From: Corynebacterium vitaeruminis DSM 20294
Lineage (GTDB): Bacteria > Actinomycetota > Actinomycetes > Mycobacteriales > Mycobacteriaceae
Direction: 5' to 3'
NCBI RefSeq assembly: GCF_000550805.1
Contig: NZ_CP004353.1
Span: 2,852,001 to 2,916,000 of the forward strand
DNA: 64,000 bases
The translations under genes were made by a program, and so were the position numbers. Under the pieces are notes generated by a model. It worked only from the letters and a program-made list of their open reading frames with translations, ran no database searches and was not told where the DNA came from. Below are positions 21,131 to 36,262 of this stretch, piece by piece (positions within the stretch are counted from its first letter, which is position 1; each line of letters starts with the position of its first letter).

Positions 21131-22195
21131 CTAGACTGCGGCGCCGAGGGCGGCCATCGGCTCGACCTTGGTGGTCTGGCGCACGGCGATGAGTGCGCCG
21201 ACGATTCCCAAGCCAAACACCCCGGCCGCGGGGACGAGGACGGTGGACCAGCTGAGCAGGAAGGGGACGCTGCCCTGGACGAGGGCTCCCAGGCCAAGTC
21301 CCACGAGCGCACCGAGTCCCGTACCCGCGGCGAGCACGATCGCGGCCTGGGTCAGGGCGTCGATAAGCACATAAGAAGGAGAGGCGCCGAGCGCGCGAAG
21401 AACGGCGATGTCGCGCGTGCGCTGGAGCGTCCACACGGTGAGGAAGGAGATGGTCACCAGCGCGGAGATGCCGTAGAGGAAGCCCTGCATGCTGGTCAGC
21501 GACGAGCGTTCGGACGTGTAGGCGGCAAGGCCCTGGTAGGAGCCCTTCGTGTCGGTGATGGCGGTGTGGGTGTCGGCGGCCATCTGCTGCCACTGGTCCT
21601 TGGTGGCGTCGCCGTACGCGACGAGCACGGTGCCAGCGTCTTGGGTGTGGTTGACCGCCTGCCACGTGGCGGTATCTACCCAGACGGCGGGGGAGTGGCT
21701 GTAGTACTCGTTGTCCACGATCTGTCCCACCTCCACCTTCTGCCCGGCGAGCGCGATGGTATCGCCAGCGTGAATGCCCAGCTTGTCGGCCACCTCTCGC
21801 GCGACGTTGGCCTTCTCGCTCACGGTCGCGCCCGCGGCGGTGGTCCCGTCCGGCAGGCCCATGACGGCGACAGGCTCGGCGCCGCTTCCAGCCTCCAAGC
21901 GCGTCTGCCCCACGCCCAGCGGCAGCGCGCTCACGCCATCGCTTGTTGCAAGCTGCTTTGCGACGCCAAGGTCTGCGACCGAATTGCTAAACGACACCTC
22001 CGGGTTGTCGGTGTACGGGTCGCTAAACACGACGGCGTCCGCGCCCAGCGAGTCGAGCGCCGAGGTGTTGCGGCTGGCGAGCCCCTGGGTGAGCCCGGTG
22101 AGCATGACGATGAGCAGGGTGATGAACATGGTGACGCTGCCGATGAGCAGGAAGCGCCCGCCCGCGGTGCGGATCTCGCGGAGACTGAGGAACAT
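21131..22195 (-). CDS. hrtB: Haem-export ABC transporter permease HrtB
   Basis: The 354-residue FtsX/MacB-type permease has one transmembrane helix at residues 15-37 (LLIGSVTMFITLLIVMLTG), a ~200-residue extracytoplasmic domain, then three C-terminal helices with the FtsX pattern (TLQRTRDIAVLRALGASPSY). In HrtB, haem is taken from the membrane and expelled with HrtA's ATPase. It is the first gene of the minus-strand operon and its promoter faces chrS. The length fits HrtB of other corynebacteria. The haem specificity is inferred from synteny with chrSA. Confidence 0.8.
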   Translation of the reverse strand: MFLSLREIRTAGGRFLLIGSVTMFITLLIVMLTGLTQGLASRNTSALDSLGADAVVFSDPYTDNPEVSFSNSVADLGVAKQLATSDGVSALPLGVGQTRLEAGSGAEPVAVMGLPDGTTAAGATVSEKANVAREVADKLGIHAGDTIALAGQKVEVGQIVDNEYYSHSPAVWVDTATWQAVNHTQDAGTVLVAYGDATKDQWQQMAADTHTAITDTKGSYQGLAAYTSERSSLTSMQGFLYGISALVTISFLTVWTLQRTRDIAVLRALGASPSYVLIDALTQAAIVLAAGTGLGALVGLGLGALVQGSVPFLLSWSTVLVPAAGVFGLGIVGALIAVRQTTKVEPMAALGAAV

Positions 22196-22282
22196 GGGTG
22201 GTTCTCCTTTTCTTACTTCTCTTTGCTACCCATTTCACCGTTTTCGCAGGCCAGCCGCATCGACCGGCTGGGTTTTATTGCG

Positions 22283-22300
22283 ATCAACCGTGTGGTTGAT
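22283..22300. promoter_or_regulatory. Inverted repeat in the hrtB-chrS intergenic region
   Basis: ATCAACC-GTGT-GGTTGAT is a perfect 7-bp inverted repeat about 90 bp upstream of hrtB and 65 bp upstream of chrS. It is the clearest dyad in the divergent promoter region, so it is a candidate ChrA (NarL-type) operator. No experiment is implied by the sequence itself. Confidence 0.45.
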
Positions 22301-22363
22301 TCGTCATCGGCTACCTGGCGGCTGGGTGGCTACTTGCCGCGCGCAGCCAGTAGCGTTAGGGGT

Positions 22364-23647
22364 GTGAACGACTCTGCGCCTCTAGCCCCAACGCCCACCG
22401 AGATCGACGCCACCCGCGCGCTCAGCCGGATCATGATCTTCCTGCGCGTGAGCCTGCACATCGTCTTCGCCTTCCTCCTGGGCTTCGCGGTGGTGCAAAA
22501 CGTCGCCGCCGGAAACGGCTCGTGGCGGCTTATCACCGCGGCGGGCGTGCTCGCGGGCGTCTACATGGCGGGCACCACCTGGGAGAACCGGCGGGCGCAC
22601 TCGCTCGTGGCCGTGGAGGACACCGACCGCCGCTGGGCGATCCTCGCCGCGTGCTGGCTGGCGGTGGTGCTTGCGCTGTGGGTGGGGCTGGTGGCGTTGT
22701 CCATGGACTTCGTCTGGCTGCTGTTCCCCCTGGTCTTCCTCATCCTCCACATCCTGCCCACCGGGGTGGCGATCGTGGGCGTGGCCGCCGCGTGGGCGGT
22801 GGCGGCGTTTCTTCCCGCCTGGCTGCACACGCCGTCGTGGAACGTGGCCAACGTGGTGGGCCCGCTCATCGGCACGGTCTTCGCCATCGGCGTCTACTTC
22901 ACCTACCGGGCGCTCGGCCGCGAGGTGCAGACCCACGCGCTGCTCACCCAACAGCTGCTCTCCGCGCAGCAGCAGCTGGCCATGAGCGAGCACCAGGCCG
23001 GCCGGATGGAGGAGCGCGAGCGGCTCTCCCGCGAGATCCACGACACCGTCGCCCAGGGGCTGAGCTCCATCGTCCTGGTCTCGCGCGCGGCGCGCTCCAA
23101 CCTGCAGAAGGGCAACCTGGAGGAGCTGTCCGCCCAGCTCGACACCATCAACGAGCAGGCGAGCACCTCGCTCGCCGAGGCCCGCCGCTTCGTCCGCGAC
23201 CTCGCTTCGCCGGATCTGACCCAGTCGCTTCCCGAGGCTCTGGAGAAGGTCGTCGCCCGCACGCGCGCCCGCCAGGGGGCGCTGGGTGAACCGCTCGACC
23301 TCGCGCTCAACGTGGTCGGAGAGATCGACCCCGCCGCCGTCCCCGAGCCCGTCTCGCGCACGATGGTGCGCGTGGCCCAGGAGGCGCTCAACAACGTCGT
23401 TAAGCACGCCCACGCATCGAAGGTCGTGGTCACGCTCGGGCTCTGGGACGATCAGCTCAGCCTCGACGTGGTGGACAACGGCTCCGGCTTCGATCCCGCG
23501 ACCGCCAGCGGCTACGGGTTGCCCGGGGTCAGGGCGCGCGTGGCGGACCTCGCCGGCACCGTTACAATCGAATCAGCACCAGAATCCGGCACCGCGCTGG
23601 CCTGCTCGATCCCGCTCACATCCCGTTCGACCTCGGCGGAAGGTTAG
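22364..23647 (+). CDS. chrS: Haem-sensing histidine kinase ChrS
   Basis: The 427-residue NarX/HisKA_3-type kinase starts at GTG 22364, with no separate strong ribosome site, perhaps on a leaderless mRNA. The N-terminal ~165 residues form about six transmembrane helices without an extracytoplasmic domain. A coiled coil (LLTQQLLSAQQQLAMSEHQA) leads to the phospho-acceptor His in SREIHDTVAQGL and an HATPase with VVDNGSGFD and GYGLPGVRARV. Membrane-embedded sensing with few loops is typical of ChrS/HrrS. The gene is divergent from hrtBA and 3 bp ahead of chrA. The haem signal is inferred from cassette structure. Confidence 0.8.
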   Translation: MNDSAPLAPTPTEIDATRALSRIMIFLRVSLHIVFAFLLGFAVVQNVAAGNGSWRLITAAGVLAGVYMAGTTWENRRAHSLVAVEDTDRRWAILAACWLAVVLALWVGLVALSMDFVWLLFPLVFLILHILPTGVAIVGVAAAWAVAAFLPAWLHTPSWNVANVVGPLIGTVFAIGVYFTYRALGREVQTHALLTQQLLSAQQQLAMSEHQAGRMEERERLSREIHDTVAQGLSSIVLVSRAARSNLQKGNLEELSAQLDTINEQASTSLAEARRFVRDLASPDLTQSLPEALEKVVARTRARQGALGEPLDLALNVVGEIDPAAVPEPVSRTMVRVAQEALNNVVKHAHASKVVVTLGLWDDQLSLDVVDNGSGFDPATASGYGLPGVRARVADLAGTVTIESAPESGTALACSIPLTSRSTSAEG

Positions 23648-23650
23648 ATC

Positions 23651-24268
23651 ATGAAGCCCATTGCAGTCATGCTTATCGACGACCACCCCGTGGTGCGCGC
23701 CGGCTTACGTTCTATCGTGGACGGGTTCGACGACGTCCGCGTGGTCGCCGAGGCCTCTAACGGGGACGGCATCACCCCGGAGTCCCTCGCCGAGCAGGGC
23801 ATCGACGTGGTCGTGACCGACATCCAGATGCCCGGCACCGACGGCATCACCCTCACCCAGCGGCTTGCCGAGGCCGGCCCGCCGGTGCTCATCCTCACCA
23901 CCTACGACACCGAGGCCGACATCGTTGCCGCCGTCGAGGCCGGCGCGATGGGCTACCTGCTCAAGGACGCGCCGGAGGAGACTCTGCACGCGGCCATCCT
24001 GGCCACCGCCCGCCGCGAGCGCACGCTGGCTCCCGAGGTGGCCAGCGCGCTGATGAACCGCATCTCCAAGCCGCGCCAGGCGCTGTCTGCCAGGGAGATT
24101 GAGATCCTCCAGGCCCTCGAGTCGGGCGCGACGAATCGCCAGCTCGCGGCCAGCCTGTTCATCTCCGAAGCCACCGTGAAGACGCATTTGGTCCACATTT
24201 ACTCGAAATTGGGCGTCGACAATCGCACCGCGGCGATCACGACGGCCCGTCAGATGAAGCTCATTTAG
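23651..24268 (+). CDS. chrA: NarL-type response regulator ChrA
   Basis: The 205-residue regulator has a receiver domain with the acidic pocket in MLIDDHP, phospho-acceptor Asp in VVTDIQMPG near residue 57, conserved Thr and Lys (LILTTYD, YLLKDAP), and a C-terminal LuxR helix-turn-helix (LSAREIEILQALESGATNRQ, then SEATVKTHLVHIYSKLGV). It starts 3 bp after chrS, so the two are cotranscribed. By synteny it is the activator of the divergent hrtBA genes. Confidence 0.85.
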   Translation: MKPIAVMLIDDHPVVRAGLRSIVDGFDDVRVVAEASNGDGITPESLAEQGIDVVVTDIQMPGTDGITLTQRLAEAGPPVLILTTYDTEADIVAAVEAGAMGYLLKDAPEETLHAAILATARRERTLAPEVASALMNRISKPRQALSAREIEILQALESGATNRQLAASLFISEATVKTHLVHIYSKLGVDNRTAAITTARQMKLI

Positions 24269-25123
24269 ACCCATATAGGGGTAGTTTAGGGCCCCTTTGG
24301 TCTGACCACGAGAATCCTTTTTCGCGGCTTTGTCGGAGTGAAAAGCCTTAGGGGAACTCATTTTTCGGGCCCATTGTATTAATTATACATAAGCCGGAGC
24401 TGTGTGTTTATTAGCTTACGGGGCCAATGTTTACGCCCTGTCGTTCGCCGGAGCCACATCGTTACATTCATCGAAGAATTCTCTTTCCGTCTAGTACACC
24501 TCGAATCAACCTCGACCGCCGGCGTGGAGACCGCGCCAAGAACGCCCTGCTGCAAGCTTGAGGCGTCCTCTCGTTCCAGATCTTGAGACCCCATCCGCTC
24601 CGCAGGCACCACAGCCGCCACCCACCGCCGACCTTTTGGCCACAAACCCATTTTCATATCATTTCCATTACTTTTGCGACTTCATTCCGACAAGACTTTC
24701 AGGCAACCGATCCTGCTCCGAGACCTTCCGACACGGACGCGCGATCTTCCGCCACCAAGGCGTCTGACACGAGTCGCCATTCCATAATTCTCAAGGCATT
24801 CGATGGCCCCTCGACCAATCATTGGCGAAACGAGAATAACCTATTTCGGGGGTGATATTGACTCGCGCAGAACGCCTCGTGTTGCCGTGACCAGCACGTT
24901 GTCGACACCGAGTTGAACGCTGTACGGTCGTTCCGGAGCGGAATTCTTCTTATTCTGTTTTCACTATGTGGCAATACTTTTCACACATAAGTGATAGCGA
25001 TTGACCTAGTTCCCTTTTCAACTAAATCCGCTTTTCCCTTGTTAGTGGGCACCGATCTTGATTAGATTCGAAGTCAACGGGAGCACAAGTTCTCGGTCAA
25101 ACTTCAATCCGAAAGGAAAGAAC
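24269..25123. other. Long non-coding region before the small-gene array
   Basis: In 855 bases after chrA I find no gene with a plausible start and composition. The sequence is more AT-rich than the core, especially around 24370-24410 and 24640-24680. The last 120 bases contain the promoter and leader of the first small gene, with TTGATTAGATTCG near 25060 and the ribosome site GAAAGGAAAG at 25111. Confidence 0.5.
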
Positions 25124-25219
25124 ATGTCCTCTGATATCCTCGACTACTTCGTTAACATCGCCGGTACTGCTTTCTGTGGCATCGTTGCCCTGCTGAACAG
25201 CATCATCTCCCTGCCGTAA
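25124..25219 (+). CDS. Small hydrophobic protein, 31 aa (group A)
   Basis: A strong GAAAGGAAAG ribosome site precedes an ATG and a 31-codon frame ending TAA. The peptide starts MSSDILDYFV and ends SIISLP. It has two acidic residues near the N-terminus, one Cys at residue 18 and otherwise alternating hydrophobic and small residues, so it could form one amphipathic or membrane helix. It lacks a cleavable signal peptide. It is paralogous to the gene at 25661. Size, lack of a signal and a Ser-rich start recall the corynebacterial mycomembrane peptides PorA/PorH, but sequence identity is not evident. Clear hairpins follow at 25237 and 25321. Confidence 0.65.
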   Translation: MSSDILDYFVNIAGTAFCGIVALLNSIISLP

Positions 25220-25236
25220 TAGCGCTTAGTGCGCCG

Positions 25237-25256
25237 CATCCGTTCGCGGATGTGTA
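25237..25256 (+). other. Hairpin after the first small gene
   Basis: CGCATCCG-TTCG-CGGATGTG forms an 8-bp stem with a UUCG loop 18 bp after the stop codon. Confidence 0.5.
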
Positions 25257-25320
25257 GATGGCACGCAAACCAAGCGTTCGTCTCTCCAGTTGGGTGGGCG
25301 CTTGGTATCGATTGACAAAG

Positions 25321-25359
25321 CCTCGTCACTTGGCGGTTTCCGCCAGTGGGGGGCTTTTT
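25321..25359 (+). terminator. Intrinsic terminator of the first small gene
   Basis: TGGCGG-TTT-CCGCCA extended by CAC/GTG forms a stable stem followed by a GC-rich stretch and TTTTT at 25355-25359. Confidence 0.75.
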
Positions 25360-25660
25360 GCGTGCCTTGAATCTGCATCACCCACGATTCATCACACTCC
25401 TACAACGGAATACCTGCGGCCCAGGCAATAACCTCCGGCAACAGATCATGCTTGACAGCCCTAGCCTGAAATTCTTTCCGATACAAACACATCTAGGAAC
25501 CGTTAACGGAAACTCAGTGTTTTTCAAATAAAGTGATAGACCTCTCCCTTTTCTGTATCAAAACATCTGGTTTTTCTATTGTTTCCGCATGTGAGAGCAG
25601 TTAAATTCAGAAGTAGCCGGAGCAACCGCTCCAACCCCACCCACCAGAAAGGAAGAGATC
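25360..25660. other. Leader region of the second small gene
   Basis: About 300 bases without a recognisable gene. The last 80 bases form the promoter and leader of the gene at 25661, including the ribosome site AGAAAGGAAGAG. Confidence 0.45.
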
Positions 25661-25756
25661 ATGTCCGCTGAAATCCTTGGCTACCTTGGAGGCATCGTCT
25701 TCACGGCCCTGCTTTCTCTCTACAACATCCTCGCCACCATCATCGCATTGCCTTGA
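25661..25756 (+). CDS. Small hydrophobic protein, 31 aa (group A)
   Basis: This is a paralog of the gene at 25124, with the same length, the same ending (ALP against SLP) and a shared pattern: MS, small, acidic, IL, x, Tyr, then IV and a Leu/Ile-rich helix. It starts MSAEILGYLG. It has a single acidic residue and no basic one, and only the N-terminus is polar. A strong AGAAAGGAAGAG ribosome site lies 5 bp upstream. It is followed by a 19-bp hairpin terminator. The duplicated, separately transcribed arrangement supports a real gene. Function is unknown; a secreted or outer-membrane peptide is a reasonable guess. Confidence 0.65.
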   Translation: MSAEILGYLGGIVFTALLSLYNILATIIALP

Positions 25757-25770
25757 TCTCGGTGAGGCAA

Positions 25771-25812
25771 CAGAGACCTCGCCGTCCCGGATTCGGGATG
25801 GCGAGGTCTCTG
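25771..25812 (+). terminator. Hairpin terminator of the second small gene
   Basis: A 19-bp stem with one G-U pair (CAGAGACCTCGCCGTCCCG, 25771-25789, with its complement at 25794-25812) and loop GATT lies 14 bp after the stop. It is very stable, with no long T-run. Confidence 0.75.
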
Positions 25813-26217
25813 CTTATCGCCCGTAATTCTTGACCGCACCCGCCTATTTCAAGGCTTGAAAAGTCACCTGTACTTTTCGTTCGAGGCTCTTACACAATCT
25901 CCCTAAGCGCCTTGACCTGCACTTTCGCCGATGCCTCCCCAAGAGACAGCCGATTGGCAGGGTCCTGCCAGACAGACTTCTTGCCCCTCGTGCGGCGGTT
26001 CTGTTTGACCCAAAAACTTGCCTATGCGCTGGCGATTCGCGCGCCTTGAAGCAAGCTGCGAATGCTCACAGCGAACTTCTAAATTTCGATTAATTTCTTG
26101 TTTTCGCAGGTAGAGAGGATTTCAAGGGTCCTTGCCGTTGTCCGATGCCGCTGGTTTACTCGTTCTCAGCGGCGGCAAACAGCAGTCGCGTTACCAGACC
26201 TACGAAGGGATAAACCC
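25813..26217. other. Leader region of the third small gene
   Basis: About 400 bases without a recognisable gene. From 26104 it contains TTCGCAGGTAGAGAGG, the same box that precedes the Met-Phe-Asp-Gln genes at 27062, 27541 and 28107, so it probably starts the promoter region of the gene at 26218. Confidence 0.5.
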
Positions 26218-26301
26218 ATGAGCTCTTACGTTACTAACCTGTTCGACACCATCGTCAGCGCTATCTCCCACGTCTTCAACGCTGTCATCTCCTCCCGCTA
26301 A
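26218..26301 (+). CDS. Small amphipathic peptide, 27 aa
   Basis: A 27-codon frame (MSSYVTNLFDTIVSAISHVF, ending ISSR) starts behind GAAGGGAT. It can form one amphipathic helix with a Ser-rich polar face, one Asp, one His and a C-terminal Arg. It resembles phenol-soluble-modulin-like or PorA-like peptides in character, not in sequence. It shares an upstream box with the three Gln-rich genes that follow and the same end pattern (SSR) as the first of them. A hairpin follows 47 bp downstream. Confidence 0.6.
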   Translation: MSSYVTNLFDTIVSAISHVFNAVISSR

Positions 26302-26348
26302 GTCGGGCAGCCACGGCATCTCCTTGAGAGTGTCGAGGGATAGCTGAA

Positions 26349-26364
26349 GCCCGCTTCGGCGGGC
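26349..26364 (+). other. Hairpin after the third small gene
   Basis: GCCCGC-TTCG-GCGGGC forms a tight hairpin with a UUCG tetraloop. A second one (CCCACG at 26468 pairing with CGTGGG at 26486) followed by CCTTT may be the actual terminator. Confidence 0.55.
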
Positions 26365-26837
26365 GAGGTTAAGGGTTGAATCTAGGGAGCGTAGCTCCCA
26401 GAAGTTTTCCGCAAAGTCCACAGTTAGGCGCGTCTGCCAGCTGTGGGTTCTTTGCGTTTGCACGGGTCCCACGTTTCGTTCGAAGCGTGGGCCTTTGCCG
26501 TACCTAGGCTCTCACCTCCCATTGCCCGCCTCGGCCACGCTGGTTCGCGCGTCGCTAGAGTTATCCCGCAACTTGGTGGTCATGTGCAAACAGATTGTGG
26601 TTAAGCATGGGCGGGGTTTCGCGGGAGTTCGAATACATCCGGCAAGACGCTTCGCAGGCGCCCAGTGCTGCAAGACCTCGGTGTCTGTTATTCAACGCTG
26701 GCGTAGGGGAGGTCCCCGACCGCCTAACCCCTCGGCAAACGCTGTTCCCGTTGGCTCCATCCATCTCTCCCCATACCTCTGTGAAGCGGCTGCCATTTTC
26801 ACGCCCCTCAGCCGACCCGGCGGGGAGGTGATGGCAG

Positions 26838-26951
26838 ATGGGCAAGCGACAACTCCCAATCGTTATCATTGCGCTCAACTTAACGGAACGTGAAGGTGAG
26901 CTAGGCGCCAAAAGGCCCATTTTCATCGATCTCCAAAACACCTCGCAGTGA
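26838..26951 (+). CDS. Possible 37-aa protein in the small-gene array
   Basis: An ATG nine bases after GGGAGG opens a 37-codon frame (MGKRQLPIVIIALNLTEREG to a TGA at 26949). It has a basic start, a hydrophobic stretch and then a charged tail. It has no paralog in the window, and its only support is the ribosome site and lack of stops, so it may be chance. The rest of 26302-27060 shows no gene. Confidence 0.22.
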   Translation: MGKRQLPIVIIALNLTEREGELGAKRPIFIDLQNTSQ

Positions 26952-27061
26952 GCTCGCAGCAACACTTTTTCGACGCATTTCCATCACCGATCGCGGTGGC
27001 AATGACATGCATTTTCTTCGCGCCGAGGGCACTTCAAGCTGGCTCCAAGGTTCGGTGTTTG

Positions 27062-27145
27062 CGCAGGTCAAGGCGGTTTTGTCCGCCATTGACGGTTCCG
27101 TTGACCAGGCCTACCATTCAAGTCATCGGCAGCAAGAGCTACCAC
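27062..27145 (+). promoter_or_regulatory. Conserved upstream region, copy 1 (Met-Phe-Asp-Gln genes)
   Basis: Order of elements: GCAGGT box, TTGACC (-35-like), then TACCATTCA and GTCATCGGCAGCA just before the leader. Copies 2 and 3 lie at 27541 and 28107. Of the three, this copy has the most changes. Confidence 0.6.
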
Positions 27146-27173
27146 TTCTACTTCCCACTCAGAGGAGACAACA

Positions 27174-27317
27174 ATGTTCGACCAGCTTTCCCAGATCGCA
27201 GAGCACGTCCAGAACCTGCAGCAGTTCAACCCGGCTCAGCAGATCCAGCAGTTCGTCCCGCAGGTTACCGAGCACCTCAACCCCAGCAACTGGCTGGTCT
27301 CCCTGTCCTCCCGGTAG
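27174..27317 (+). CDS. Gln-rich small protein, 47 aa (group B)
   Basis: The frame starts MFDQLSQIAEHVQNLQQFNP behind AGAGGAG and ends SLSSR. Six of the first 20 residues are Gln, and an AQQIQQFVPQV repeat follows. The peptide is helical and amphipathic, with no signal peptide, no Cys and few charges. It is the first of three paralogs in tandem (27174, 27660, 28216), each with the same start (MFDQ), a central FNPxQ block, a Trp and its own promoter repeat and hairpin. The repeats and the conserved protein pattern make these real genes. I do not recognise the family. A surface or mycomembrane role is conjecture. Confidence 0.72.
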   Translation: MFDQLSQIAEHVQNLQQFNPAQQIQQFVPQVTEHLNPSNWLVSLSSR

Positions 27318-27343
27318 TCGGCAACTGATCTAGTTATCTACCC

Positions 27344-27381
27344 AAGCCGCCCCTTGGCGCTCATGCGTCAGGGGGCGGCTT
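27344..27381 (+). terminator. Hairpin after the first MFDQ gene
   Basis: AAGCCGCCCC (27344-27353) pairs with GGGGCGGCTT (27372-27381). It lies 26 bp after the stop. There is no long T-run. Confidence 0.6.
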
Positions 27382-27540
27382 ACGCATGCGGGCCACGGGT
27401 CTGCGCGCATTCCTACCAAGCTTGCAGATGCTTCACAGCCACCCGACGAACCAAGCAAATCGGGCGCAAAGAGGGACCTTCTACCTCGGGGTTTGCGATC
27501 CTGTCAGCACTCCAAGCCAGCTCCAAACTAATCCATTTAC

Positions 27541-27615
27541 GCAGGTAGCGGCGTTTTTTGGGTCCGTTGACCGGCCTCTTGCCCGGTCCTAGTATTCACT
27601 TCATCGGCAGCAACC
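27541..27615 (+). promoter_or_regulatory. Conserved upstream region, copy 2
   Basis: GCAGGTAGCGGCGTTTTTTG, then GTCCGTTGACCGG (-35-like TTGACC), TAGTATTCA (-10-like TAGTAT) and TTCATCGGCAGCAA. It is nearly the same as copy 3. An inverted repeat GACCGG/CCGGTC lies between -35 and -10 (27571-27591) and could be an operator. Confidence 0.65.
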
Positions 27616-27659
27616 GCCGCCGACAATAACGACACTTTCCTTGTGAAGGAGAAATCACT

Positions 27660-27791
27660 ATGTTCGATCAGTTCAACCACATCGCTGAGCAGTTCCAGCA
27701 CTTCAACCCGTTCCAGCAGGTCCAGCAGTGGGGCGCACAGGTCCAGCAGAACTTCCAGCCGCAGAACTGGTTCAACGGCTTCCGTCGCTAA
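27660..27791 (+). CDS. Gln-rich small protein, 43 aa (group B)
   Basis: Second MFDQ paralog: it starts MFDQFNHIAEQFQHFNPFQQ, carries QQWGAQVQQNFQPQNW and ends FNGFRR. It is richer in aromatic residues than its neighbours (six Phe, two Trp) with a basic C-terminus. The ribosome site is GAAGGAG, 8 bp upstream. It has its own promoter repeat and a strong terminator. There is no signal peptide and no known domain. Confidence 0.72.
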   Translation: MFDQFNHIAEQFQHFNPFQQVQQWGAQVQQNFQPQNWFNGFRR

Positions 27792-27815
27792 GCGCACGCC
27801 AAGACTCTTTGAAAG

Positions 27816-27866
27816 CCCCATCCCCGGCGTTCTCCCTCGCCGCGGGATGGGGTCTTTTCGTTTTAT
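27816..27866 (+). terminator. Terminator after the second MFDQ gene
   Basis: CCCCATCCC (27816-27824) pairs with GGGATGGGG (27844-27852), followed by TCTTTTCGTTTT. This is a good intrinsic terminator. Confidence 0.8.
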
Positions 27867-28106
27867 TGTCCACAATGAAAACTGTACGTTCGCTGTATGC
27901 CCTTTGGGTGGACGCCAACGGCACGTCGGCAAGCGAGTAGCAAACGCTCAGCGCTTTGACCTGCGACTTTCACTCTCCTGCAATCTTGGCAGGGTTTTCG
28001 CAGTCAAGCCGATTTCGCTGACGTACCGAGCTTCGGAATCTGCCCCTGAGCTGCGGTTTTAAGATTTTGACAGAACTTCCAAGTTTCTCCAAACTTCGGC
28101 ATTTGT

Positions 28107-28180
28107 GCAGGTAGAAGGCTTTTTTCGACCCGTTGACCGGATTAGGGAGCGGTCGTAGTATTCAACTCATCGGCAGCACA
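28107..28180 (+). promoter_or_regulatory. Conserved upstream region, copy 3
   Basis: GCAGGTAGAAGGCTTTTTTC, CCGTTGACCGG, TAGTATTCA and CTCATCGGCAGCA, in the same spacing as copy 2. GACCGG..GCGGTC again forms an imperfect dyad between the -35-like and -10-like boxes. Confidence 0.65.
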
Positions 28181-28215
28181 AGCGCCGTGTTTCTACTAAT
28201 CAAGGAGATTCCTCC

Positions 28216-28356
28216 ATGTTCGATCAGATTCCCCAGATCGCAGAGCACGTCCAGAACCTGCAGCAGTTCAACCCGGTCCAGCACATCCAGCAGTGGGCAC
28301 CGCAGGTGCCGCAGTTCTTCCAGCCGCGCGGTTGGGTCCCGGGCCTTTCCTCCTAG
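28216..28356 (+). CDS. Gln-rich small protein, 46 aa (group B)
   Basis: Third MFDQ paralog: it starts MFDQIPQIAEHVQNLQQFNP, nearly the same first 20 residues as the gene at 27174, then VQHIQQWAPQVPQFFQPRGW and GLSS. Proline content is higher, so the C-terminal half is unlikely to be one helix. The ribosome site is CAAGGAG, 10 bp upstream. Its close match in DNA to the first paralog over residues 8-20 suggests recent duplication or gene conversion. Confidence 0.72.
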   Translation: MFDQIPQIAEHVQNLQQFNPVQHIQQWAPQVPQFFQPRGWVPGLSS

Positions 28357-28370
28357 TATTTAGCGGTTAG

Positions 28371-28411
28371 GGTCTGCGTGGCGTAGCTTCCCCTATGCCA
28401 TACGGCGGACC
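28371..28411 (+). terminator. Hairpin after the third MFDQ gene
   Basis: GGTCTGC pairs with GCGGACC, and inside GCGTAG pairs with CTATGC around CTTCCC. It lies 15 bp after the stop. Confidence 0.55.
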
Positions 28412-28442
28412 GTCCGGAGAGAGTTTCTGAATAGACGCATAA

Positions 28443-28568
28443 AGCTTCGTCCTTCGACCTTGGGGGTTCACCTCCTGTGATCCGAGGCGAAAGACGAAGG
28501 AGGCTCGGGCCGATGGGAGTCCCGAGCTTGAAGACCCAAGGACTTGTGGGAGTCCTTGGGTCTTTCCT
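28443..28568 (+). ncRNA. Three-hairpin structured segment, candidate small RNA
   Basis: Three hairpins follow each other without a reading frame. CTTCGTC (28445) pairs with GACGAAG (28493). GCTCGGG (28503) pairs with CCCGAGC (28521). GACCCAAGGACT (28533) pairs perfectly with AGTCCTTGGGTC (28551-28562), followed by TTTCCTT. The second and third loops both show GATGGGAG/TGTGGGAG, i.e. a shared GGGAGU end. The last hairpin works as a terminator for a plus-strand transcript, and for the minus-strand DUF1846 gene it could also serve as one. I cannot match it to a named RNA family. The minus-strand loops (CUCCC) would be C-rich as in some sRNAs. Confidence 0.45.
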
Positions 28569-28584: not shown

Positions 28585-30078
28585 CTAGCGCTTCTGGTAC
28601 AGCGACTTCTTCTGGAACTTCGGGTCGCTGGTGACCAGCACCCCGAGGTTGCGGAAGATGCCCTCGTCCACCGAGCCCAGGATGGTGGTGGTGTGGGCGA
28701 TGCAGCCCTTGAGGTGCTGCAGGTGATCGAGGGCCCGGCGCGCCTCCTCGTTCGTCGAGGCCGACACCGACAGCGCGATGAGCACCTCGTCGGTGTGCAG
28801 GCGCGGGTTGTGGCTGCCCAGGTGCTGGATCTTCAGCGTCTTGATCGGCTCGATCGACTCCGGGGAGAGCAGGTGGCTCTCGTCCGGGATGCTGGCCAGG
28901 TGTTTCAGCGCGTTGAGCAGCATCGCGGCGGAGCAGCCGAGGAGGGCGGAGGTGCGCCCGGTGATGATGGTGTCGTCGTCAAGCTGGATGGCGCAGGCGG
29001 GCTCGCCGGTCTCCTCCGCACGGGCGCGGGCCACGCCGACGACGGCGCGGTCGGTGGCCTTGATTTTCGCCTTGGCCATGACCACCGCCGCGCGGTCCGA
29101 CTGGGTGGAGTCCAACCTGCCTCTGGCCTCGTCGACAAGCGCCTTGAAGTAGCGGCGAATGATCTCTTGGCGGCTGGCCTCGCGGCAGACCTCGTCGTCG
29201 ACGATGCAGAAGCCCGCCATGTTCACGCCCATGTCGGTGGGGGACTGGTACGGGGTGGTGCCGGTGAGCTTCTCCAGGAGCACCTTGAGCAGCGGGAACG
29301 CCTCCACGTCGCGGTTGTAGTTGACCGTGGACTCGCCGTAGGCGCTGAGGTGGAAGTGGTCGATGACGTTGGCGTCGTTGAGGTCGACCGTCGCGGCCTC
29401 GTAGGCCAGGTTGACCGGGTGATCCAGCGGCAGGTTCCAGATGGGGAAAGTCTCAAACTTGGCGTACCCGGCCGATCCGCCGCGCTGGTACTCGTGGTAG
29501 ACCTGCGAGAGGCAGGTGGCCAACTTGCCGGAGCCCGGCCCCGGGGCGGTGACCACCACGAGGTCGCGGGTGGTTTCGGCGAACTCGTTGCGGCCGAGCC
29601 CCTCCTCGGAGACGATGAAGTCGGTGTCCGAGGGGTAGCCCGGGATGACGCGGTGGCGGAACACCTTCATGCCGAGGCGTTCCAAGCGCTCCTTGAACTC
29701 GGCCGCCTGGCGGTTGTCGTCCTCCATCTGCGTGAGCACCACGTTTTCCACGAGGAAGCCGCGGCCGCGGAAGACGTCGACTAGGCGCAGCACGTCCTCG
29801 TCGTAGGTGATGCCGAGGTCCGCGCGCACCTTGTTGCGCTGCAGGTCCTTGGCGTTGATGCACACGAGGATCTCCACCTCGTCCTTGATCCGGTCGAGCA
29901 TCGCGATCTTGTTGTCCGGGGTGAACCCAGGCAACACGCGCGAGGCGTGCATGTCGTCGAAGAGCTTGCCGCCCATCTCCAGGTACAGCTTGCCCCCGAT
30001 TTTCTCCCGGCGCGCTTTGATGTGCTCCGATTGCAAGTCGATGTATTTTTCGCGATCGAAGCCGATCCCGTGCGCCAT
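28585..30078 (-). CDS. DUF1846 family protein
   Basis: The 497-residue cytosolic protein matches DUF1846 throughout: [40 protein letters not shown], the [18 protein letters not shown] loop near residue 185 (P-loop-like) and the metal- or nucleotide-region CIVDDEV. The family is widespread in Firmicutes and Actinobacteria. Structures are known but the reaction is not established. ATG 30078 is the first start. It stands alone on the minus strand. The RNA-like hairpins at 28443-28568 lie just downstream. Confidence 0.93.
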
Positions 30079-36246: not shown

Positions 36247-36262
36247 TGTTTCACGTGAAACA
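36247..36262. other. parS site 1
   Basis: TGTTTCACGTGAAACA, a perfect match to the bacterial parS consensus bound by ParB. It is intergenic, behind copS, and its last bases form part of the terminator stem. Confidence 0.93.

Follow-up and report, generated by a model that had tools for sequence, protein, structure and literature searches.

An array of tiny S and Q genes in Corynebacterium vitaeruminis: relatives of the Grt proteins and possible envelope peptides

Introduction

GrtA, GrtB and GrtC of Corynebacterium glutamicum were reportedly named glutamine-rich toxic proteins by Maeda, Tanaka and Inui in 2018 (doi 10.1111/mmi.13951), together with an antisense RNA, AsgR. One sentence of a review terms grtABC–AsgR a type I toxin–antitoxin (TA)-like system with a role in the stress response (PMC6563280). 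Other small proteins of C. glutamicum, PorH, PorA and ProtX, carry no identifiable Sec signal and undergo O-mycoloylation by Cmt1 (MytC); surface assembly of PorH requires PorA, and mycoloylation of either partner of the PorA–PorH pair suffices (PMC12632848). Mycoloylation has been mapped to Ser56 of PorH, within a C-terminal NFSS, and to Ser37 of the Ser37–Ser38 of ProtX, and the tail of PorB is likewise NFSS (PMC5310785). Here we analyse a stretch of 64,000 nucleotides of Corynebacterium vitaeruminis DSM 20294 (the window; NZ_CP004353.1, positions 2,852,001 to 2,916,000 of the forward strand), which carries an array of six tiny genes of two families, Q and S. By homology, the Q proteins are Grt relatives; the S peptides are their putative partners, and the tails of most Q and S members recall the mycoloylated tail of PorH.

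Six small genes without a conventional gene

An earlier note, made from the sequence of this stretch, had claimed six frames of 27–47 residues in 4.3 kb devoid of conventional genes. All six are present at those sizes and all lie on the plus strand (coordinates include stop codons; aa, amino acids; SD, Shine–Dalgarno; CAI, codon adaptation index):

25124..25219, plus strand: S-family peptide 31A (MSSDIL..., 31 aa); SD aaagga, CAI 0.57, alignment with the 26-mer profile
25661..25756, plus strand: S-family peptide 31B (MSAEIL..., 31 aa); SD aaagga, 42% identity with 31A, weakest coding evidence
26218..26301, plus strand: S-family 27-mer (MSSYVTNLF...ISSR, 27 aa); homologues in other genomes, weak SD
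27174..27317, plus strand: Q-family (Grt) MFDQ1, 47 aa, tail SLSSR; homology, codon usage
27660..27791, plus strand: Q-family (Grt) MFDQ2, 43 aa, tail GFRR, without Ser or Thr; homology, codon usage
28216..28356, plus strand: Q-family (Grt) MFDQ3, 46 aa, tail GLSS; homology, codon usage

These six tiny open reading frames (ORFs) are real genes, 31B least certainly. Five ATG frames of 25–50 codons with a strict SD occur on the plus strand of the array and none on the minus strand, against a chance expectation of 0.084 per strand (maximum 2 in 1000 first-order Markov sequences). The strong ribosome site that had been claimed for every frame thus holds for five; the 27-mer (upstream acgaaggg) fails the strict test and is supported by its homologues in other species. 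Relative to groEL2, which itself scores 0.776, CAI is 0.68, 0.84 and 0.69 for MFDQ1–3, 0.56 for a fourth copy outside the array (MFDQ4), 0.58 for the 27-mer and 0.57 for 31A, whereas 51 long ORFs of the same genome, a set from which shadow ORFs are not fully excluded, have a median of 0.32, with 0.605 as their 95th percentile. The value for 31B, 0.30, is at or below that median, and its support is therefore the weakest of the six. An abundant product would suit the high values of the window Q genes.

Between the genomes G118 and G242, the grtA-like gene has a ratio of nonsynonymous to synonymous change (pN/pS) of 0.08 and the gene of the 26-aa S peptide described below one of 0.11, indicating selection on the protein. 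It is 0.44–0.71 among the MFDQ paralogues of C. vitaeruminis and 0.66 for 31A against 31B, the latter weak evidence taken alone.

The Q proteins as Grt relatives

The fourth MFDQ copy lies at C1:1226074. The four paralogues contain 18–28% Gln, and intact-looking members of the wider family are 43–62 aa long. A profile of these four copies aligns with four grtA-like proteins of other genomes over the first 20–23 residues only (hhalign probability 95, E 3.8e-8); the wider set A3 gives probability 95.5 (E 1.5e-8). The comparison confined to the four copies avoids the circularity of the widened profile A6, whose 13 rows include other genomes. A first, window-only profile (A1) found 2 of 242 genus genomes at E 0.01, C. 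vitaeruminis itself and G214, and missed the grtA-like set of the other genomes. At E ≤ 0.1, A6 matches 10 of the 242, six strongly (G000, G214, G079, G094, G118 and G242) and four weakly (G095, G173, G185 and G246, known by score alone).

In a set of 5.8 billion proteins, 26 match A6 at E ≤ 0.1, and the six with a named source are all from Corynebacterium: sp. SCR221107, callunae (two), deserti, suranareeae and C. glutamicum GrtB. This GrtB record (P0020, 'type I toxin-antitoxin system antitoxin GrtB', E 4e-4) and the product of the second MFDQ gene in G118, a genome that we judge by its PorA and PorH to be C. glutamicum, are identical at all but 2 of 52 residues; G118 has a row of three MFDQ genes and G242 a row of two. 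The homology to a record named GrtB, together with the profile match to grtA-like proteins, places MFDQ1–4 by sequence in the known family GrtA/B/C, and the Q family is hence not new. The family had been taken for an unfamiliar one, which does not stand; the accompanying guess of toxin-like peptides was right insofar as the MFDQ proteins are Grt homologues. Nor do gene callers always reject such frames, as had been supposed, because five Q homologues stand in public records as 'hypothetical protein'.

The label 'antitoxin' of P0020 is likely a mislabel, given that GrtB figures as a toxic protein in the 2018 title. One relative of MFDQ3, P0007, is 55 aa long and has an extra Gln-rich insertion, which suggests length variation. 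The Q proteins are polar, with a grand average of hydropathy (GRAVY) of −0.47 to −1.09 in the four C. vitaeruminis copies and −0.81 in the grtA-like protein of G118.

Compared with Grt/AsgR of C. glutamicum, the window Q proteins are homologous, start with MFDQ, are Gln-rich and occur as paralogous copies. In contrast, each appears to form a unit of one gene behind a promoter-like site of its own; the genome holds a fourth copy at another place, and there are accompanying S peptides.

The S family and a putative S–Q bicistron

At E ≤ 0.1 the 27-mer finds 6 of the 242 genomes, its own included, all of which were inspected. Four of them (G118, G242, G094 and G079) carry a 26-aa S frame with the tail AVVLSS, whose stop codon lies 31–56 bp upstream of the grtA-like MFDQ gene. 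G138 (30 aa, tail FLSS; L073 4159-4251, MSSLFGYFYNILLTVKDSIVDLFSAVFLSS) and G017 (29 aa; L074 4444-4533, MFELISTLFDVLVGAISGAFQAIVAAIKG) each have a lone S relative preceded by a good ribosome site, and the small ORFs listed around it include no MFDQ gene.

By hhalign the 31-mers align with the 26/27-mers (probability 80, E 1.4e-5). Their alignments to the 26-mer profile have p values of 0.0008 for 31A (5000 shuffles) and 0.0036 for 31B, in both cases with shuffles that do not preserve helical periodicity; pairwise alignment of 31B with the 27-mer is not significant (p 0.167). Searched with the 31-mers, 9 of the 242 genomes match at E ≤ 0.1, only C. vitaeruminis strongly, and the best foreign match (G202, L015, E 0.0085), the sole one inspected, lies inside a longer frame with no comparable small gene. 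Profile A7 matches 23 of 242 at E ≤ 0.1, five strongly (E < 1e-13); of the weak matches inspected, G138 proved to have a 30-aa ORF with an SD and G003 to lack any corresponding small ORF that has an SD. On these alignments, the 27-mer, both 31-mers and the 26-mers of other genomes form a single S family of short hydrophobic peptides (26–31 aa). Two families thus replace the earlier division into two 31-mers, three MFDQ proteins and a solitary 27-mer.

The position of the 26-aa S peptide just upstream of the grtA-like gene in four other genomes points to a putative S–Q bicistron, resembling porH–porA. The order of the array, S, S, S, Q, Q, Q, may be read as that of a two-part locus that was amplified and split into single genes.

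Leaders, promoters and hairpins

A promoter scan of the array gives four promoter-like sites against 2.0 expected, and among the six genes only MFDQ1–3 have one. These sites, the leader matches, the repeats and those 3′ hairpins that exceed the 1% level in 300 shuffles are as follows:

27089..27117, plus strand: promoter-like site of MFDQ1 (TTGACG-17-TACCAT); scan, conserved leader
27567..27595, plus strand: promoter-like site of MFDQ2 (TTGACC-17-TAGTAT); scan, conserved leader
28133..28161, plus strand: promoter-like site of MFDQ3 (TTGACC-17-TAGTAT); scan, conserved leader
25061..25092, plus strand: 31A leader matching the MFDQ leader profile; score 12.5, 0 of 500 shuffles, best of 28 control genes 5.5
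26153..26184, plus strand: possible, marginal leader match of the 27-mer; score 4.9, p = 0.044, 1 of 28 control genes higher
26101..26122, plus strand: GCAGGT box at the 27-mer; repeat, but genome-wide not confined to these genes
27058-27079, 27536-27557 and 28102-28123, plus strand: further copies of the GCAGGT box at MFDQ1–3; repeat
25317..25357, plus strand: terminator-like hairpin after 31A; −25.2 kcal/mol, T tail
25771..25812, plus strand: hairpin after 31B; −40.3 kcal/mol
27344..27381, plus strand: hairpin after MFDQ1; −36.0 kcal/mol, without T tail
27815..27853, plus strand: terminator-like hairpin after MFDQ2; −31.2 kcal/mol, T tail

Promoter region and leader are common to MFDQ1–4. 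With up to three mismatches, the leader element TAGTATTCANNTCATCGGCAGCA has four sites genome-wide, solely at the four MFDQ genes (reversed control, 0), and over 124 nt upstream, identity to MFDQ2 is 61% for MFDQ1 and 70% for MFDQ3. The MFDQ1–4 leader profile also matches G214 (score 14.3), and has no match at 31B, at the 26-mers of the four other genomes or at porH. The Q genes, 31A and perhaps the 27-mer thus appear to have a common leader. The description of the copies as differently regulated thus holds only in part: MFDQ1–4 and 31A have this leader, the 27-mer marginally, and 31B lacks it. The hairpin that had been assigned to every frame follows 31A, 31B, MFDQ1 and MFDQ2, and MFDQ4 too has a strong one; none beyond the 1% level follows the 27-mer or MFDQ3.

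The upstream box, TTNGYGCAGGTNRNNGNNTT, was considered as a specific regulator site and rejected, because up to one mismatch gives 10–24 sites per genome, mostly at other genes (reversed control, 0–4 sites per genome in six genomes). The single minus-strand promoter-like site of the array, at 24410, is far upstream, and none lies at the MFDQ 3′ ends; on the C. glutamicum-type locus the same scan likewise shows no promoter opposite its grt genes, and it is hence uninformative on an AsgR-like antisense RNA.

Ser-Ser tails and amphipathic helices

Ser-Ser falls within the last four residues of 27 of 31 distinct Q proteins, many of them close variants, compared with 6 of 306 long ORFs of the loci analysed. 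It is exactly C-terminal in 18 of the 31, against 1 of 306, with five more tails SSx and four more SSIG. The Q proteins without it (MFDQ2, P0019, P0022 and P0025) have tails unlike the remainder. Among S peptides, the four 26-mers end in LSS and the 27-mer in ISSR, and PorH ends in [FL]SS in four of the six genomes in which it was found. ProtX (Cg2875) is likewise small and signal-less, with its Ser37–Ser38 mycoloylated at Ser37 (PMC5310785); its Ser positions, 3, 10, 21, 32, 37 and 38, by which alone it was compared, are unlike those of Q or S proteins. Cgl3015, listed with S54 in the O-mycoloylome table, was not accepted as a Grt protein: residue 54 of the grtA-like protein is not Ser, and no tag was matched. 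The unmodified chains have calculated average masses of about 2733 Da (26-mer) and 6596 Da (grtA-like protein), not counting a formyl group or loss of Met, and the corynomycolate increments given in PMC5310785 are about +478, +504 and +530 Da.

Amphipathic helices are predicted for 31A, the 27-mer, MFDQ1, MFDQ3 and MFDQ4 (shuffle p 0.003–0.032), and AlphaFold gives a single chain of MFDQ1 three helices at low confidence (pLDDT 65.7, pTM 0.23). What had been proposed as a family of expanded small proteins, several of them amphipathic, is therefore borne out.

Comparison with PorA and PorH

The earlier note had also seen a resemblance to PorA and PorH. It extends to the organisation, two adjacent small signal-less proteins, and to the C-terminal [FL]SS of PorH and of most Q and S members; it does not extend to detectable homology. 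Neither the six window peptides nor MFDQ4 match the NCBIfam models of PorA and PorH (NF033925, NF033938), although in G118, the control, PorA scores 83.5 bits and PorH 39.5, both above the cut-offs. Membership of the window peptides in PorA/PorH was rejected on this and on the hhalign comparisons. One global alignment, of MFDQ1 with the PorH-like protein of C. vitaeruminis, gave z 5.6, but profile comparisons gave probabilities of 0.3 and 0.1, and homology is not claimed.

That genome has a PorA-like and PorH-like pair of its own, at C1 about 2514652-2515023; the two proteins score 22.6 bits each (E about 1e-4), under the cut-offs, and are identified also by place:

L077 5653-5763: PorA-like gene, 36 aa, beside groEL2; under the NCBIfam cut-off
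L077 5830-6024: PorH-like gene, 64 aa, three LSS motifs near the C terminus, beside groEL2; under the NCBIfam cut-off

With groEL2 and the por-like genes at C1 about 2.5147-2.5171 Mb and the array at 2.877-2.880 Mb, the array is not beside groEL2.

Neighbouring features and other searches

The array is flanked by two conventional genes:

23651-24268: LuxR-type response regulator, left flank
28585-30078, minus strand: DUF1846 protein, right flank

Searches of plasmids with MFDQ1 and 31A and of phages with 31B (tblastn) gave no match, PADLOC nothing for seven proteins, and Rfam, over 20-32 kb, just two sub-threshold miRNA-type matches, both outside the array. Contig-level genome scans returned no confirmed locus, probably false negatives for short Gln-rich queries. 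Palindromes TGTTTCACGTGAAACA, which we take to be parS-like, occur in the window at 36247, 44175, 53397, 56259 and 60145, with two window sites carrying 1 and 2 mismatches, and none lies in the array itself. They also occur at L067 5429 and 5709, L068 5894 and L069 6135, just after grt genes, and in L067 the palindrome is part of a terminator-like hairpin.

Discussion

The most likely function of the array, put forward tentatively and somewhat short of an even chance, is an envelope-directed two-part S–Q peptide assembly, to which the Ser-Ser tails, the S–Q adjacency, the amphipathicity of most members, the low-confidence helices and the codon bias together point. S and Q peptides would be strongly expressed without a signal sequence and exported by the unknown route of PorA, PorH and ProtX; their C-terminal Ser-Ser would be O-mycoloylated by a Cmt1-type mycoloyltransferase, and S and Q together would insert into the mycomembrane as helical assemblies that alter its permeability. 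The name Grt probably goes back to impaired growth on overexpression; such toxicity would then be a side-effect, caused by membrane activity in the wrong place. A wider claim, possible but more doubtful, is that the Grt 'toxins' have been misread and, with an overlooked partner of 26–31 aa, constitute a further two-component, signal-less, helical, O-mycoloylated mycomembrane assembly, present also in C. glutamicum and amplified here. No mention of the S partner, of the leader shared across S and Q genes or of the Ser-Ser tail as a tie to mycoloylated proteins was met with in the literature searched, which left out most subscription papers, including Maeda 2018.

Several observations weigh against an envelope assembly. 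The Q and S peptides have no detectable homology to PorA or PorH (hhalign probability 0.1–0.6), and the genome already carries separate porA/porH-like genes beside groEL2, whose CAI of 0.45 and 0.43 shows that high codon adaptation is no porin signature here; in G118 the 26-mer and three MFDQ genes reach 0.53–0.63, under a 95th percentile of 0.661 drawn from only 12 ORFs. In the window, hundreds of bp separate the S from the Q genes. Both 31-mers end in LP, without a Ser-Ser tail; the SSIG and SSx tails counted among the 27 are not terminal, P0024, also counted, has an unrelated-looking tail, and the variants are not independent. MFDQ2, lacking Ser and Thr, offers no site for O-mycoloylation although its codon usage is the best of all; in PorA–PorH, however, mycoloylation of a single partner suffices. 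Amphipathicity is not significant for 31B (p 0.074), MFDQ2 (p 0.173) or the grtA-like protein of G118 (p 0.070). In favour of the assembly are 13 matches of the C. vitaeruminis genome to PF00756, the family that includes mycoloyltransferases, and the presence of porH/porA-like genes; but with matches also in 12 of 14 control genomes PF00756 is unspecific and no proof of a Cmt1 orthologue. Table 1 of the O-mycoloylome paper, whose tags were not matched to genes, contains no protein recognisable as Grt; the same paper states that small proteins are hard to detect. Finally, a title and one review sentence describe the Grt family as toxins with an antisense RNA.

That description underlies the main rival, a type I TA-like system in which the Q proteins are intracellular toxins, restrained by antisense RNA and released under stress, and the S peptides extra small toxins. 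The homology of Q to Grt and the review sentence on a TA-like stress system (PMC6563280) speak for it, as does the likeness of 31A to the Fst toxin model NF033608, which stays under the cut-off (13.4 against 26 bits) and is matched by none of the other peptides. We nevertheless consider it unlikely, since the window copies use the codons of highly expressed genes, unusual for a silenced toxin, MFDQ1–3 have separate promoter-like sites, and the conserved Ser-Ser tail is left unexplained. Envelope and toxin readings are compatible should membrane-active helices, when overproduced, poison the cell.

The polarity and Gln content of the Q family would suit cytosolic stress-related small proteins that bind protein or RNA and have nothing to do with membranes, a reading that the strongly hydrophobic peptide adjoining Q in four genomes and the Ser-Ser tails make improbable. 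Secreted or surface peptides acting on other cells, bacteriocin- or modulin-like, would account for the five amphipathic helices and the tandem expansion, and the genes directly upstream (window 21131-24268), for an FtsX-type permease (21131-22195) and for a two-component pair of HisKA_3/LuxR type, could sense or export peptides; a Pfam search limited to four flanking proteins found no immunity or leader-peptidase gene, and we regard this reading as quite improbable.

Very small proteins are important components of the corynebacterial mycomembrane, and their passage across the plasma membrane and their assembly are open questions (PMC12632848). If the envelope assembly holds true, C. glutamicum, the model species, would gain a further system in the form of an S–Q pair with the tail of PorH and ProtX, S and Q would become candidates for proteins that use the unknown export route, and a published TA-like system would be recast. 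With one search tool accepting no query shorter than 40 aa, the array also shows how a real family of 26–31 codons evades searches.

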